Shown here piece by piece: positions 4,179-24,669 of a stretch of DNA of 25,107 nt. Every line of letters starts with the position of its first letter. Position 1 is the stretch's first letter. The notes beneath the pieces were generated by a model. The model was not told the origin of the DNA and ran no database searches. It saw only the letters and a list, made by a program, of their open reading frames with translations. Source of the stretch: a virus. Position numbers and translations under genes: made by a program. The stretch is taken from positions 1-25,107 of the IMG/VR virus record IMGVR_UViG_3300044678_000880; one strand, 5' to 3'.

Positions 4179-5429
4179 TTAGCCCTCCACAATTGCAAGT
4201 TCTGTGACGCCGCGACGTTTCTGCAGGTCGAGCTGCTCACGCTGTAGCCTTTCGATTTCTGCCGTCAGTTCCGCCGTCTTCTCGGTGGCCTTAGCAACAC
4301 GGTCGCCGCCGCCAGTGCTGACGCGGGACAGCAGGCGGGATTGCATCGCCTGCAGCGGTGCGGTTGGCTGGGCGAAGGCTTTCTGCCGCTCTTCTTCTTT
4401 TTTCTTTTGTTCGTCGGCCAGCTGCTTCTGGGCTTCGAGCAGTTCGTTCTGGATCGACAGCTCGCGGCCTTGCAGGATCACCTCTTCGCTGATTCCGGCC
4501 ATGCTGGCCTTCATCTCGTCAGCCGCTCGTTTGCCGTTCATTAGCTCTTCGTTGCGAATCTGCAAAGCCGCTAGGTAGTCGTCTTCTTTTTTCCGCAGGT
4601 CTTCTTGTGCCTTTTTTTGGTCGTCCCAGTTCTTGGACCATTCTTGAAATTGCCGCTGCTCGGCAGCCAAGGCTTCGTCTGCGGCCTTCTTTGCTTCTTC
4701 GTTGCTCTTCAGTCTGGCGTCGAGCATTTGCTGTTCGGCCGACGGGTTGCGAATGTCTTGAACTTCTTGATTCTGTTCTTTGAGAAGCTCGAGCTTTTTG
4801 CGTTCGTTCTCAAGGTCCGCCTTGGCTTTGTCAACGTCGCCCTGTGACATGCCGAAGTAGTTGCCAGCCTCGGCCGCTGCCAGCTCCTGCTCACGCATTC
4901 TGACGAAGTCCTGCTGGAACTGGATGTCACGCTGGATTTGTTCCTGCAGCGTCTTCAGTTCGCTGGCCTTCTGGTCGTCGCTTCCCGCCGCCTGGGCAAT
5001 CTGCAGCCGCAGCTGAAACTGTTTGTCGAGCTTCTCTCTGACTTGCTGCTCGCCTTTGTTGGCTTCGTCCAGTGCGTCCTTCAGTGCCTGCTTCCAGCGT
5101 TCAGTCTCAAACACCCACTCGCCGATCATCTTGCCAATGTTAAAACTGGCCGCTGCCACCGCCGCAGCGATGCCAGCTTTGGCGATCATCATCCCAGCGC
5201 CGCCTTTTTCACCGGCGTCACCCAGTTCTTTCATCTGGCCGGAAATGTTGCCGAACTCGCCCGAATAGGCCTGCAGTTCCGACAAACCGAGTGACTCGAA
5301 AATTTTGCCGAACACGCCCGACAGTTTTTGCCCGGTGTCGGCCGTCTTTTTCATCTGGCCAGCAACGGCCGTAAACGCAGGCGATGCGTTGTCAACGCCG
5401 TCGAGAATGATTTCTACAGATTCAGCCAT
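4179..5429 (-). CDS. Tail tape measure protein
   Basis: The 416-aa protein is taken from the ATG at 5429, which overlaps the upstream stop as TAATG. A longer frame from 5504 would only add residues inside the preceding gene. Features in order: a mixed N-terminus (AESVEIILDGVDNASPAF), a Gly/Ala-rich hydrophobic stretch (~res 78-110, GGAGMMIAKAGIAAAVAAA) able to cross a membrane, then a long charged helical and coiled-coil region of Gln, Glu and Lys (~res 115-400), for example KADLENERKKLELLKEQNQE. This matches tape measure proteins, which set tail length and enter the host envelope. At about 1.5 angstrom per residue, 416 residues would give a short tail near 60 nm (a rule of thumb). It directly follows the tail chaperone, as in lambda (G, T, H). 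Confidence 0.85.
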   Translation of the reverse strand: MAESVEIILDGVDNASPAFTAVAGQMKKTADTGQKLSGVFGKIFESLGLSELQAYSGEFGNISGQMKELGDAGEKGGAGMMIAKAGIAAAVAAASFNIGKMIGEWVFETERWKQALKDALDEANKGEQQVREKLDKQFQLRLQIAQAAGSDDQKASELKTLQEQIQRDIQFQQDFVRMREQELAAAEAGNYFGMSQGDVDKAKADLENERKKLELLKEQNQEVQDIRNPSAEQQMLDARLKSNEEAKKAADEALAAEQRQFQEWSKNWDDQKKAQEDLRKKEDDYLAALQIRNEELMNGKRAADEMKASMAGISEEVILQGRELSIQNELLEAQKQLADEQKKKEEERQKAFAQPTAPLQAMQSRLLSRVSTGGGDRVAKATEKTAELTAEIERLQREQLDLQKRRGVTELAIVEG

Positions 5430-6141
5430 TACATCCGCCTGTAGGCTTCCGCTTCCGCCCGGTTTTGCTCCGACCGGAAGCACTCGTAAAACGACACAAA
5501 CCACGCCGATTGATCCAGCACGCCGCCAGCCACCGGCGGCAGTCCCTGCTTCATCAGGTCCGCCATCCGAATGGCCTTGAGCAGGCCGCGATCAATCATC
5601 TCCTTCGGGCATCCGGTTAGTTCGACGTAACCGCTCTGCCCGCACTCATCACACCCGGCTTCGTTGCAGCTGCTGCAGGCAATTGACACGCTGGCCAGTT
5701 CAGTTGGCCGGTCGTGGCATTTGCCCGCCGTGCAGCTGCCGCACAGCAGCCCCTGCCGGATCAGGGCTGCGACGCGGAGTTTTTTTCGTCGGCCTTGCTC
5801 GTGCTGCCGCCCGCCAGAACCTTACGATAAAGCTCGTAGGCTTCGGCAGTTGTGAACACGTCCAAGATCGCTTCGGGGCTGTAGGGAATCTCGCCGCCCG
5901 TTGCCGGGTCTCGAAAATTCCGCCAGCCCGTGATGACTTCGGCCAGTCCCTGCTGCAGCTGTGCGAATAGCTCGCGGCTGCTTTGGCAGTTCTTTAGTCC
6001 ATCCAGCAGGTCGCCGAGGCGTTCCTGCCGTCGCATCGAAAGTGCGACCGTGTAAATCGTCGGCCGCTGGTCTTCTGGTTTGTCGATGTCCCAGTCGAGA
6101 ACGATTGGAAATCGCTCGCCGGGTTCCAATGCTCGCCCCAT
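5429..6141 (-). CDS. Tail assembly chaperone -1 frameshift fusion (G-T type) with Cys-rich extension
   Basis: Ribosomes that slip -1 at A AAA AAC (bases 5785-5779) would continue to the stop at 5429-5431 and make a protein of about 237 aa: 121 residues in frame 0 plus 116 in frame -1. The -1 frame has no stop from 5779 onward. The extension is rich in Cys (CGSC, then K-C-H, CSSC, CDEC and C-P), similar to DnaJ-type zinc modules (CxxC-x-x-x-G-C-x-x-C). The rest (EMIDRGLLKAIRMADLMKQG) is helical. In lambda the equivalent G-T fusion binds the tape measure and guides tail-tube assembly; here the next gene is the tape measure. The GTG at 5689 that could open a separate 86-aa ORF has no Shine-Dalgarno sequence, which favours fusion. 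The frameshift is inferred from sequence. Confidence 0.8.
5746..5785 (-). promoter_or_regulatory. Programmed -1 ribosomal frameshift site (slippery heptamer plus hairpin)
   Basis: On the minus strand the codons are GAA AAA AAC, so A AAA AAC (5785-5779) fits the rule X XXY YYZ in the correct frame. After an 8-base spacer (5778-5771) there is an inverted repeat: GCAGCCCTG (5770-5762), loop ATCCGG (5761-5756) and CAGGGGCTGC (5755-5746). It can pair as 9 bp with one bulged G. The frame-0 stop TGA lies at the hairpin apex, and the -1 frame is open for 116 codons. Heptamer, spacing, hairpin and downstream open frame together make a complete canonical cassette of the dnaX and tail-chaperone type. 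Confidence 0.85.
5761..6141 (-). CDS. Tail assembly chaperone, short (G-like) product
   Basis: Frame-0 product of 126 aa with a strong AGGAGG ribosome site 7 bases before the ATG. It is an acidic, mainly helical protein (RFPIVLDWDIDKPEDQRP at the start, then LGDLLDGLKNCQSSRELFAQ), matching the small chaperones that lie between tail tube and tape measure in many siphophages. The C-terminal residues ADEKNSASQP are encoded across the slippery heptamer and the stop follows shortly. A minor fraction of ribosomes is expected to slip (see the fusion entry). In lambda, excess short product coats the tape measure and is not in the mature virion. Gene order is the main evidence: it follows the tube protein and precedes the tape measure. 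Confidence 0.8.
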   Translation of the reverse strand: MGRALEPGERFPIVLDWDIDKPEDQRPTIYTVALSMRRQERLGDLLDGLKNCQSSRELFAQLQQGLAEVITGWRNFRDPATGGEIPYSPEAILDVFTTAEAYELYRKVLAGGSTSKADEKNSASQP

Positions 6142-6168: not shown

Positions 6169-7104
6169 TTAAGGTGCAGAGAAAGTAAACGAAAGCTCGT
6201 CATTGCCAGCCGCCGCCGACTTGTTGCACTGGAACGTGATCTCGTCGGTGACAACGCCGTTGCGGTCGCCGATGGCCACGTTGGTCCGCTGCAGTTTGGG
6301 TGCTGCAATGGCAAACTTGTCGGTTGCGTTTTCAAGGTCGAAAGCCAACGCTTCCTCGGTCATGCTGGTCCAGATGTCGTAGTTGTCCTTTGTGCCGTCC
6401 AGTTCCATTTCTGGGTTGATGGTTCCGGTTACGGATCGGTCGGTGATGATGGCGGCAGCGTAGCCGCTGCCGTCCGTGCTGGTTGCACACTCACGCAGGA
6501 CGACCGTGTTGCCGGCGTCGATGGTCATCGACTGGAAGCAAGGCGACCAGCTGCCAATGGTAAACGTGGCGTTGCCGACCCGCAGCGGCAGCGCCGTCGG
6601 GTAGGTTGGTGCTAGCAGCGAGACGGCCGAGTTGCCGACGAAGACGCCGGTGAACGTCCAGTTGATGCTGGCGATCTTGCCAGTCTCGAAGGTCATGCTG
6701 AACGTCCCAGCACAGCCACGCATCAGCAGGCGGTTGCCGTCGATGTAGGCTCCGATGGTCAGCGTCTTAACGTTGCTGCCTGGCGTTTCTGACTTCGGCG
6801 TGAACACGCCACCGGCCGCAGTCCAGCCGCAGGCAGGCAGAAAAGTCGACGCCCAGCCGGGGACGCCGCCAGCTCCGCTGCCGTAGACCTCGGTCCTGAA
6901 TGTGCAGGTGCCGCCGTACAGTTCCGGCACGGCTGGCAGGCTTGAGAAACTGCTTTGACTTGGACGCGGCGTCATCGCAATTGTCGGCGTCATCGTCAGG
7001 TCAAAGACGTTGAACGCAGCATCGGCAGCGACGAGGCTTTCGGCACTTCCGCTAGTGACTTCAATCTTGGCGGCAAGAACGTTTTTTCGGCGAAGTAGTG
7101 GCAT
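6169..7104 (-). CDS. Major tail tube protein
   Basis: This 311-aa protein has an AGGAG site 9 bases before the ATG. The body is made of beta strands in two halves, as expected for the tube fold with an extra domain: DAAFNVFDLTMTPTI near the N-terminus, a middle section with CFQSMTIDAGNTVV, and a C-terminal RNGVVTDEITFQCNK. It lies directly upstream of the tail chaperone and tape measure, the usual site of the tube gene (lambda V). At 311 residues it is longer than lambda V (246), leaving room for a surface Ig-like domain. No known fold signature proves the assignment; it rests on position, beta content and the strong ribosome site expected for an abundant structural protein. Confidence 0.75.
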   Translation of the reverse strand: MPLLRRKNVLAAKIEVTSGSAESLVAADAAFNVFDLTMTPTIAMTPRPSQSSFSSLPAVPELYGGTCTFRTEVYGSGAGGVPGWASTFLPACGWTAAGGVFTPKSETPGSNVKTLTIGAYIDGNRLLMRGCAGTFSMTFETGKIASINWTFTGVFVGNSAVSLLAPTYPTALPLRVGNATFTIGSWSPCFQSMTIDAGNTVVLRECATSTDGSGYAAAIITDRSVTGTINPEMELDGTKDNYDIWTSMTEEALAFDLENATDKFAIAAPKLQRTNVAIGDRNGVVTDEITFQCNKSAAAGNDELSFTFSAP

Positions 7105-10428: not shown

Positions 10429-10905
10429 TTACTTGTTGTTTGCTTCGGCGATGACTGCATCACGCAGGCCAGCGTGTTCGCGTGCCGCCTTGCGGGCAGC
10501 GTCGGCCTTCTTCAGTCCTTGTGCCGTGTAGGTTGCGACAACGCCTTCCCACTGGGCCTTGGCGCTGGCGACCGGCTTTGAGGCGGTGACAGACGCCACC
10601 GGAGCCACGCCAGGACGAACCTTGGCGGCTGGCATCGTGACCATCTCTTCCTTGTCGTCTTCTTCGACTTCGGCGACGGTCGTCTCTTGAGCCTTGGCCT
10701 TGAGTGCGACCATCTCCTCTTCCATCGCTGCGAGCTTGGCCTTGAGCTGTTCGTTCTCGGTCATCATCTCGCTGTAATACATTTCGGCGACTTGGTCTTC
10801 GGTCATCTCGGCAGCGACTGCCTTGACGATGAAGTCCGACGACGCCTTGCCGAAGCGAGCCTGAATGAATTTCACGGTCGCGACGGGCTTGGGATTGCTG
10901 CTCAT
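10429..10905 (-). CDS. Nested scaffold protein (Nu3-like internal start)
   Basis: Within the protease gene, codon 204 is ATG followed by SSNPKPVATVKFIQARFG, and GGAG lies nine bases before it (bases 10915-10918). Translation from here gives a 158-aa, mostly helical, charged protein: a coiled-coil section (EQLKAKLAAMEEEMVALKAK) and an Ala/Lys-rich C-terminus (KKADAARKAAREHAG). Lambda makes its scaffold Nu3 the same way, from an internal start in gene C. The start codon falls just after the low-complexity linker (DSSGETADQTETNS) that separates the two domains, as expected if the domain is made separately. Expression is inferred; the sequence shows only the domain boundary, the start codon and the ribosome site. 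Confidence 0.65.
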   Translation of the reverse strand: MSSNPKPVATVKFIQARFGKASSDFIVKAVAAEMTEDQVAEMYYSEMMTENEQLKAKLAAMEEEMVALKAKAQETTVAEVEEDDKEEMVTMPAAKVRPGVAPVASVTASKPVASAKAQWEGVVATYTAQGLKKADAARKAAREHAGLRDAVIAEANNK

Positions 10906-11514
10906 GGAATTTGTCTCCGTTTGGTCAGCAGTTTCGCCGCTCGAGTCGCCGCTGACGTTCAGCGACTGATTGACCCGCTCCGGCATGTTTCCTGTGAATC
11001 TGGCAACGGCCACGCTCTTGCGGGCAGTCGGCAGAATTAAATCGACGTAGCCGCTGGCCTGTGCCTCGCGGGCATCCAGCCAAGTCTCGGCACGCATCGC
11101 GGCCTCAACTTCTTCGCGGCTCTTTCCTGTCTTGGTTGCGTAGGCGGTGACCATGCTGTCCCGAAGTTTGCCCAGCAGTTCGGATTGCTTCTGCAGCTCT
11201 TCGCTGTCGCCTTCGGTCACGGTGTACGGATTGTGCAGCATCAGGTAGCCGTTCTCGGTGATCTCTACCTTGCCTGCCGCCATTGCGATAAAGCTGGCGA
11301 TGCTGAACGCACTGGACTCAACAACGGCCCGAACTGGTCCCGGCCATGCAGTGATTGCGTCATGGATGCCAAGGCCGTCGAACACGCTGCCGCCTTCGCT
11401 GTCGATGCGAATGACCAGCTCCTGCGACGGATCGCAATCAGCCAGCAGCGACTTGAACGTCGCGCTGGTGATGCCGGGGTAGCCGATGCTGCCGTAGAGT
11501 TTGATTTCATTCAT
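10429..11514 (-). CDS. ClpP/S14-type head maturation protease with C-terminal scaffold domain
   Basis: This 361-aa protein matches lambda C and other prohead proteases. Residues ~32-160 show a ClpP fold: LVIRIDSEGGSVFDG (33-47), the catalytic Ser near position 71 in SSAFSIASFIAMAAG, His94 in GYLMLHNP and Asp158 in GYVD. The second half (~205-361) is helical and charged (TENEQLKAKLAAMEEEM), with Ala-Lys-rich C-terminal helices, as in assembly scaffolds. The start overlaps the portal stop by 8 bases. The protease cleaves capsid precursors and itself before DNA packaging. An internal in-frame ATG at codon 204 would give the scaffold alone (see that entry). Confidence 0.85.
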   Translation of the reverse strand: MNEIKLYGSIGYPGITSATFKSLLADCDPSQELVIRIDSEGGSVFDGLGIHDAITAWPGPVRAVVESSAFSIASFIAMAAGKVEITENGYLMLHNPYTVTEGDSEELQKQSELLGKLRDSMVTAYATKTGKSREEVEAAMRAETWLDAREAQASGYVDLILPTARKSVAVARFTGNMPERVNQSLNVSGDSSGETADQTETNSMSSNPKPVATVKFIQARFGKASSDFIVKAVAAEMTEDQVAEMYYSEMMTENEQLKAKLAAMEEEMVALKAKAQETTVAEVEEDDKEEMVTMPAAKVRPGVAPVASVTASKPVASAKAQWEGVVATYTAQGLKKADAARKAAREHAGLRDAVIAEANNK

Positions 11515-21608: not shown

Positions 21609-22415
21609 TCAGGAAATGACTTTCGGTGTCGGAAAACTCATCCCGTCCGGCGCGTAACCGATAAACACCGTCCAGCGGGCTTTAAGAGCCTCCTTGACGC
21701 CGTCAATCGTCCATTCGTGGACGCCGTCGCCATTCCACCGCGTGCCCCACGAATTGATGTTCACGATGTTTCCACTGGCTCGCCGTTGCCAGAACACCGT
21801 CGAATGTCCGCCACCGGAACGGGATGAATAGTTTGAAACGACTTCTTGGTCGCAGGTGCTGTTCCAAGTCAGTCCGGTTTGAATCGGCAGGCCGGAATCC
21901 AGCCACGCCAGCATGGCGTCGATGTCTTTGAGTGGCTTGGTGGCCTGCAGCTTAAAATTGAATTTGCCGTTTGCACTTGGCGGCATCGCTGGGTTATACC
22001 GCTGCGGGTACGGCCAGTCGGATTCAAGGCACATCCCGTGCTGGGTTGCGACCCACTGACCGCCGCTAAGTGTGCTGCCCTTGTCGCCGCTGATGCCGTC
22101 CTTCTTCTGTGCCAGATAGTAGCCCGCCGAACGGCTAAACGTCTCGTGCCGACCGGTTGCCAAGAAGTAGCAGATGCTGAACACCTGCGCCAGTGCGTTG
22201 CCTTGGCAGCTGCCCTGCTGCCCTTGGTCAAACACCTTCAGCAGGCCCAGCGGGTCCGCCTGCGTGTTGAACTTCGGGAAGGCGTCCCGGTAGTGCTGCA
22301 GCACCAGCTCGGCCTCGCTGCCCCGGTCCTCCAGTTCGTCGAGTCGCTCCCAGTCGAAAGCGTAACCCATTCGCCCAGGCGTGAGGTCTTTTGTCGGCTT
22401 CTTTTCGTTGCTCAC
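21609..22415 (-). CDS. Papain-like (C1) cysteine peptidase
   Basis: The 268-aa protein starts at GTG 22415, overlapping the upstream stop as GTGA. The catalytic set is intact: oxyanion Gln64 and Cys70 in FDQGQQGSCQGNA, His204 in SGGGHSTVFWQ and Asn221 in NIVNINSWGTRWNGDG. The length of the catalytic domain (~res 50-255) fits the C1 fold with no large propeptide and no signal peptide. It therefore acts in the cytoplasm or is released at lysis or with the virion. It follows a secreted Ig-like protein and precedes a small TM protein. Possible roles: a protein-degrading lysis enzyme, a virion peptidase or a processing enzyme. The family is clear, the role is inferred. Confidence 0.85.
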   Translation of the reverse strand: MSNEKKPTKDLTPGRMGYAFDWERLDELEDRGSEAELVLQHYRDAFPKFNTQADPLGLLKVFDQGQQGSCQGNALAQVFSICYFLATGRHETFSRSAGYYLAQKKDGISGDKGSTLSGGQWVATQHGMCLESDWPYPQRYNPAMPPSANGKFNFKLQATKPLKDIDAMLAWLDSGLPIQTGLTWNSTCDQEVVSNYSSRSGGGHSTVFWQRRASGNIVNINSWGTRWNGDGVHEWTIDGVKEALKARWTVFIGYAPDGMSFPTPKVIS

Positions 22416-23991: not shown

Positions 23992-24669
23992 TTATCGTTT
24001 GCCCAGCAGTCTGCGAACTGCTGAACAAGCTCCTGCGCGAACCGGTGCCGTGATGCTGGTTGCGTGTCCGTACACGTTTTTCAACTTCTTCTTGCACCAG
24101 ACCGAACCGCCTGACACCACGCCGCAGACCTTGCCAGCTGCATTGACAACTGGCCCGCCGCTGTCACCGGGTATCGCGTAGGAAAACAGCACTTGTGATT
24201 TTTCACCAACGCCAGCCACCTTGGCCTTAAAGCACCGCAGCGGCCCGCCACCACCAAATCCGCAGACGTTGACCTCGTCGCCTTCGTTGACTTCATCGGC
24301 GACTTCCAAAACGCTACAGCCGCCTGGCGTTTGGCAGTTTAAAACCGCAACGTCCGCCTCTTGGTCGATGCCTCGCAGCGTTGCGTTATTGGTCGCCGTG
24401 CCGTCGTGAAAGCTGACCGTAAACGACTGATTGCCGTCGGCGATGTGTGCGGCCGTCAGAATGGCTGGGCCTTCATTTGCCGCCACGATGCAGCCGGTGC
24501 CGGTGCCGCCGTTGCTGTTACCGCGAACGACGACCACCGCACTCTCGACGCAGGGGTCGCACTTAACGAACTCCCAAAGACCCGAATCCTTGCCGACTTG
24601 CGCCACAGCGTGCGGCACAAACAGAGAAAAGACGACCAGAACTGATAGAGACAGTTTGGCGAGATTCAC
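23992..24669 (-). CDS. Secreted trypsin-like (S1) serine protease
   Basis: The 225-aa protein starts at GTG 24669 behind an AGGTGA site. Residues 1-23 form a signal peptide (SVLVVFSLFVPHAVA, cleavage before Gln24). The S1 triad is complete: His75 in ILTAAHIADG, Asp106 in QEADVAVLNC and Ser170 in PGDSGGPVV (168-176), followed by VCGVVSGGSVWCKKKL. About ten Cys in the mature chain suggest disulfides, consistent with export. The mature domain (~200 aa) is a normal trypsin/DegP-like core without a PDZ domain. It would act in the periplasm or outside the cell, perhaps on envelope proteins. As a phage gene near small membrane proteins and another peptidase it may take part in lysis or surface modification. 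The enzyme class is clear, the role is inferred. Confidence 0.85.
   Translation of the reverse strand: MNLAKLSLSVLVVFSLFVPHAVAQVGKDSGLWEFVKCDPCVESAVVVVRGNSNGGTGTGCIVAANEGPAILTAAHIADGNQSFTVSFHDGTATNNATLRGIDQEADVAVLNCQTPGGCSVLEVADEVNEGDEVNVCGFGGGGPLRCFKAKVAGVGEKSQVLFSYAIPGDSGGPVVNAAGKVCGVVSGGSVWCKKKLKNVYGHATSITAPVRAGACSAVRRLLGKR

Follow-up and report, generated by a model that had tools for sequence, protein, structure and literature searches.

The window (the whole stretch of DNA analysed, 25,107 bases of an IMG/VR virus record) carries tail and head genes on its minus strand. Among them lies what we take, with a probability of about 0.78, to be the G/G-T tail-assembly-chaperone pair of a siphovirus-like phage, in which a -1 slip near the end of the short ORF G would fuse it to an extension, T, that probably folds as a Cys8 zinc domain. 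The features of the locus, in the order in which they are discussed, are as follows.

5779-5785, minus strand: slippery heptamer A AAA AAC, in the G frame (direct reading; relatives)
5771-5778, minus strand: 8-nt spacer from heptamer to hairpin (direct reading)
5746-5770, minus strand: hairpin, likely frameshift stimulator (folding; 88% of pairs kept in 12 relatives)
5432-5779, minus strand: T extension, 116 codons in the -1 frame, stop TAA at 5431-5429 (reading frame; dN/dS)
5761-6141, minus strand: ORF G, tail assembly chaperone, zero-frame product of 126 aa, MGRALEPG...ADEKNSASQP (position, weak PHROG match, orthologues)
4179-5429, minus strand: tape measure protein, 416 aa (equivalent ORFs of relatives match tape-measure PHROGs)
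6169-7104, minus strand: probable tail tube protein, 311 aa, predicted partner of T (synteny; phrog_290 in L026 and L120)
5609-5743, minus strand: four-Cys scaffold, putative zinc site 1, C13, C16, C21 and C57, then P58 (cysteines invariant; isolates match)
5642-5677, minus strand: extra knuckle, putative zinc site 2, C35-x2-C38-x4-C43-x2-C46 (invariant; absent from isolate T proteins)
5498-5527, minus strand: GGVLDQSAWF motif, T residues 85-94, leading into the C-terminal helix (conservation; counterpart in isolate T proteins)

Direct reading of the minus strand bears out the cassette described in the first-pass annotation: A AAA AAC in the right frame, an 8-nt spacer, a 9-bp stem with one bulge and a 116-codon open -1 frame. 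The 3' end of G reads GAC GAA AAA AAC TCC GCG TCG CAG CCC TGA; re-reading the last base of the heptamer continues decoding as CTC CGC GTC GCA... and enters the -1 frame, which is open only from 5821, giving a full G-T fusion of 237 aa, as had been estimated. An in-frame heptamer of the X XXY YYZ type at the end of G is thus found together with a conserved open -1 frame. The stem, GCAGCCC(UG)/(CA)(G)GGGCUGC, has 9 bp and one bulged G, and the minimum free energy fold is an alternative with 8 bp and a 9-nt loop. AAAAAAC occurs three times in the window against 3.9 expected, so the heptamer alone is not rare, and for a sequence of its composition the hairpin has no more than modest stability (z of -0.73 against dinucleotide shuffles and -1.5 against synonymous-codon shuffles). 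In 12 relatives, 88% of the hairpin pair cells are kept, the changes are one-sided, to G-U, and the stem shows no covariation; an Rfam search gave no match. Other clades carry different hairpins, some with z below -3, and the form seen in the window is not kept in distant relatives. The hairpin alone is weak evidence for recoding; it is a candidate for the exact stimulator structure, and a role as stimulator is likely. The significance of the cassette comes from its position and its conservation.

With regard to position, ORF G sits between a tail ORF of about 311 aa and the tape measure gene, a placement conserved in relatives, and shows a weak match to a tail-chaperone PHROG (phrog_313, E 0.009). 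The ATG of the tape measure gene shares 1 nt with the T stop. Neither the tape measure nor the tail ORF of the window itself matched PHROGs significantly; the ORF that follows T in L069, L120 and L026 matches tape-measure PHROGs (E 1e-23 to 1e-30), and in L026 and L120 the ORF before G falls to the tail-protein family phrog_290. Relatives keep the order tail ORF, G, T, tape measure, and in the window as in the relatives the ORF pair lies between the tail tube and tape-measure genes, as a G/G-T chaperone pair does. The proposal of a frameshifted tail chaperone upstream of a tape measure is in this way strongly supported by the comparison of relatives. A lambda-type portal and terminase are found further upstream of the tail genes. 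Three proteases or protease-like ORFs were also noted on the minus strand of the window: a ClpP-related head maturation protease (10429-11514; NF045542 above cut-off), a 268-aa ORF whose motifs QGSCQGNA, GGGHS and NSWG suggest a papain-type cysteine protease and which has no NCBIfam match (21609-22415), and a secreted-looking trypsin-like protease of 225 aa that matches MarP/HtrA-type models below their cut-offs (E 1.5e-15; 23992-24669).

Conservation was followed in three IMG/VR scans, which gave 27, 22 and 230 relatives, the best 80 of the 230 being kept from the last. All 53 distinct T sequences among the relatives kept, with identity to the window T down to about 40%, have an in-frame A AAA AAC (16 sequences) or A AAA AAA (37 sequences) at the junction, the frame being defined from T. 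In the near group, the median dN/dS is 0.16 in the T frame, and the two shifted frames give 1.97 and 2.52; judged by these ratios, the -1 frame is under purifying selection. Moreover, synonymous variation has nearly gone from the 13 codons after the slip site, where 11 of 12 codons for invariant residues are unvaried as compared with 15 of 58 elsewhere (P 3e-5); with the dual-coded codons left out, 7 of 8 are unvaried (P 0.001), both P values being optimistic because the sequences are related. The stretch of reduced synonymous variation coincides with the hairpin region. Taken together, the heptamer, the selection and the synonymous constraint seen in relatives make the recoding cassette well supported, and a programmed -1 frameshift very likely. 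Two relatives depart from the pattern at the junction. In L009 (1030-1054), a near relative, the slip site has A6, not A7, and G would extend to 163 aa; as a consequence of the A6 run, the G homology frame disagrees, with T in another frame relative to G, as either an assembly error or a broken cassette would explain. In L027 (4889-5183), the T-like protein has GGVLDQSAWF but no cysteines and lies directly before the tape measure; its ORF has its own ATG, which overlaps the G stop (TGATG), a frameshift-free arrangement.

RNA polymerase slippage is known at run lengths of A8-A9; if polymerase likewise added an A at the A7 run, a fraction of the transcripts would encode the fusion and no ribosome would need to slip. 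The slip site is a run of A in every relative, and many have A8-A9. However, in the window and the 15 relatives closest to it the run is never longer than A7, with C as the next base (L009 has A6), and the synonymous constraint downstream fits ribosomal frameshifting with an RNA stimulator, less so polymerase slippage. In addition, ribosomal -1 frameshifting is the mechanism used by known tail chaperones (PMC5009743). Transcriptional slippage is, on balance, unlikely, and we infer that the slippage is ribosomal and that it involves a minority of ribosomes.

The cysteine clusters of T noted in the first-pass annotation form a real and conserved module, although the H of "KCH" is not conserved while its cysteine, C21, is. 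In the window the clusters read CGSC, CSSCNEAG and CDEC. In a set of 31 nonredundant sequences (below 97% identity), all eight cysteines (C13, C16, C21, C35, C38, C43, C46 and C57) are invariant, as are G79, P82, G85, G86, D89, Q90 and F94; P58 is nearly so, and GGVLDQSAWF is the most conserved part of T. The AlphaFold model built from these 31 sequences is a confident predicted fold (pLDDT 85, pTM 0.76), in which a short helix at the N terminus precedes a Cys-rich region that includes a small hairpin, followed by helices; it supersedes a poor model from 14 sequences (pLDDT 69.5). T has no significant family in Pfam, NCBIfam or PHROGs, and its Cys-rich domain is a version not represented in these collections as searched. 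A Foldseek search of the PDB with the T model found no significant match (the best, anti-TRAP, had E 0.8), and Z in VIA-align did not exceed 2.8; a missing match does not by itself show a new fold. In BFVD, several small unnamed phage proteins were found with high probability, with E above 0.03 and over about 50-65 columns.

Most likely, going by its residues, the T part is a small Cys8 domain that folds round two zinc ions; from the eight invariant cysteines we infer zinc at two four-Cys sites, which is the simplest reading of the pattern. A description of a zinc T domain was not found in our literature search, which was incomplete. The frameshift could be real and the cysteines could instead form disulfides or another metal site, in line with the finding that no solved zinc protein matches the domain significantly along its full length. 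Against this stand the CxxC pairs at knuckle spacing, the strict count of four plus four cysteines, and a local resemblance to the Cys segment of PheRS alpha (profile, E 2e-4) and, weakly, to anti-TRAP; moreover, disulfides are unlikely in a protein of cytoplasmic assembly. We give a non-zinc role for the cysteines a small chance and retain zinc as the preferred reading.

There is a very slight chance that T is a separate protein made from an internal start, as apparently in L027 with its TGATG overlap: an early TTG codon is common among the T genes of relatives and the window has GTG 5689, but 25 of the 53 T genes, that of the window included, have no start codon near the T start ahead of the first Cys, the -1 frame of the window has no ATG, GTG or TTG upstream of the first Cys cluster, its earliest start codon, GTG 5689, lies within the Cys region, has no Shine-Dalgarno-like sequence before it on direct reading (as had been claimed of T at the outset) and would delete the invariant C13, C16 and C21, and residue conservation begins at the slip site itself, where the heptamer is universal.

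The T extension can be linked to cultured phages. A tblastn search with the window T gave no real match in phage isolates, and the sole match to a genome contig, L125, was a chance GGVLDQSAW inside an unrelated 600-aa protein. The Cys-free T-like protein of L027, in contrast, led to T extensions directly before the tape-measure genes of Agrobacterium phage JP1 and Alteromonas phage P24 and, through JP1, the search reached Rhizobium phages (L338C, RHph_I4, RHph_TM16) and Rhodobacter phages (RcDurkin, RcZahn). With respect to the ORF ahead of them, the T extensions of the isolates are read in frame -1, and A AAA AAC is present in JP1, P24, RcZahn and RHph_TM16. They have four invariant cysteines, C-x2-C ... 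C ... CP, together with a G...G..Q tail as in the window family; the CxxC-x4-CxxC knuckle is absent from them. The window T, likewise a -1 extension ahead of the tape measure gene, shows the same layout, C-x2-C-x(n)-C ... CP ... G ... G..Q. Profile-profile comparison of the window family with the isolate T proteins gave a probability of 97.6% (E 2.6e-12) over the CP-to-helix part, that is, the C-terminal half; the match of the N-terminal CxxC rests on order and spacing, and the automatic alignment left the pairing of the third cysteine open. As read from these alignments, the scaffold pattern, CxxC-x4-C ... CP ... G ... GG-x2-DQ plus a long helix, is common to other phage groups.

The paper on RcZahn reports no clear frameshift signal (PMC8601537). 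Around 1500-1522 of RcZahn (L129) we see an in-frame A AAA AAC at the G/T junction, which suggests that the signal was overlooked. The Cys scaffold and the GG-x2-DQ motif tie the T proteins of uncultured phages to those of cultured alphaproteobacterial and Alteromonas phages and offer a handle for spotting other overlooked frameshift cassettes, RcZahn being an example. Because they diverge so far that they can no longer be recognised, T extensions rank with the most poorly understood phage assembly factors; their structure and their contact with the tail tube become testable here on a small, probably zinc-stabilised domain.

In the scheme that we propose, most ribosomes would terminate at UGA 5761-5763 and release the 126-aa G, while a minority would slip -1 at A AAA AAC, probably aided by the hairpin, and produce the 237-aa G-T. 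In lambda, the tape measure is bound by many copies of gpG and a few of gpGT, whose T part binds the tail tube protein (PMC5009743); by analogy, G units would here coat the tape measure and a few G-T units would bring the tail tube protein to it through the Cys8 T part. The idea of a zinc-stabilised chaperone for a tape measure, put forward in the first-pass annotation, probably misplaces the zinc part, because in lambda it is G that contacts the tape measure and T that contacts the tail tube protein (PMC5009743).

As proposed for the window, lambda gpG/gpGT and HK97 gp13 with its -1 product involve a slip near the end of the chaperone ORF, between the tube and tape-measure genes. The lambda heptamer is G GGA AAG, unlike the A AAA AAC of the window; there is nothing unusual about the slip site as such, however, since AAAAAAC was also the heptamer predicted for the Acinetobacter phage Loki tail chaperone (PMC5313236). 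Characterised G/T pairs share little sequence (PMC5009743), and the T profile has no detectable similarity to the T of lambda or HK97; what is in common is therefore the arrangement and the mechanism, not a demonstrated sequence family. The T parts of lambda and HK97 are cysteine-free after the slip site, whereas the window T has eight cysteines.

The comparison with zinc modules is less favourable to the DnaJ-type assignment made at first. CxxC knuckles are in common with the DnaJ Cys-rich domain (PF00684) and with anti-TRAP/RtpA, and many relatives have CxxCxGxG, L025 with two such repeats. However, T is not a DnaJ module: a search with PF00684 picked up just 2 of 14 members (best E 0.21), the window protein not among them, T does not have the four CxxCxGxG repeats by which DnaJ is defined, and a profile check against DnaJ (1exk) gave E 7.6; the window T has one knuckle pair only and a different four-Cys scaffold, with no significant match to DnaJ or anti-TRAP. 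It is doubtful that the extra knuckle acts as a zinc module of the chaperone type (DnaJ- or anti-TRAP-like), one that would give T its own substrate-binding or oligomerising activity and would make tube nucleation zinc- or redox-dependent in this clade. Residues 29-58 of T have the same 30-residue pattern as the CxxCxGxGCxxC segment of bacterial PheRS alpha (PDB 4p71, 2rhq), a different protein, to which the T model is not significantly similar in Foldseek (E 0.9); the likeness is probably convergence of a short knuckle.

The closest comparison is with the isolates JP1, P24, L338C, RHph_I4, RHph_TM16, RcDurkin and RcZahn, whose T proteins resemble that of the window in their -1 frame, their place before the tape measure and their four-Cys layout, and differ from it in lacking the second knuckle and in being annotated as hypothetical or as tail assembly chaperone; no description of them as zinc proteins was found in the literature searched. 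The unfamiliarity of a Cys-rich extension, remarked on at the outset, holds with respect to lambda and HK97, but a four-Cys form exists in cultured alphaproteobacterial and Alteromonas phages. On the strength of the isolate comparison, the window T reads as a four-Cys scaffold with an extra knuckle between scaffold cysteines three and four. The mechanism is ordinary for tailed phages; the novelty is in the Cys-rich T domain, with eight cysteines here and four in the isolates.
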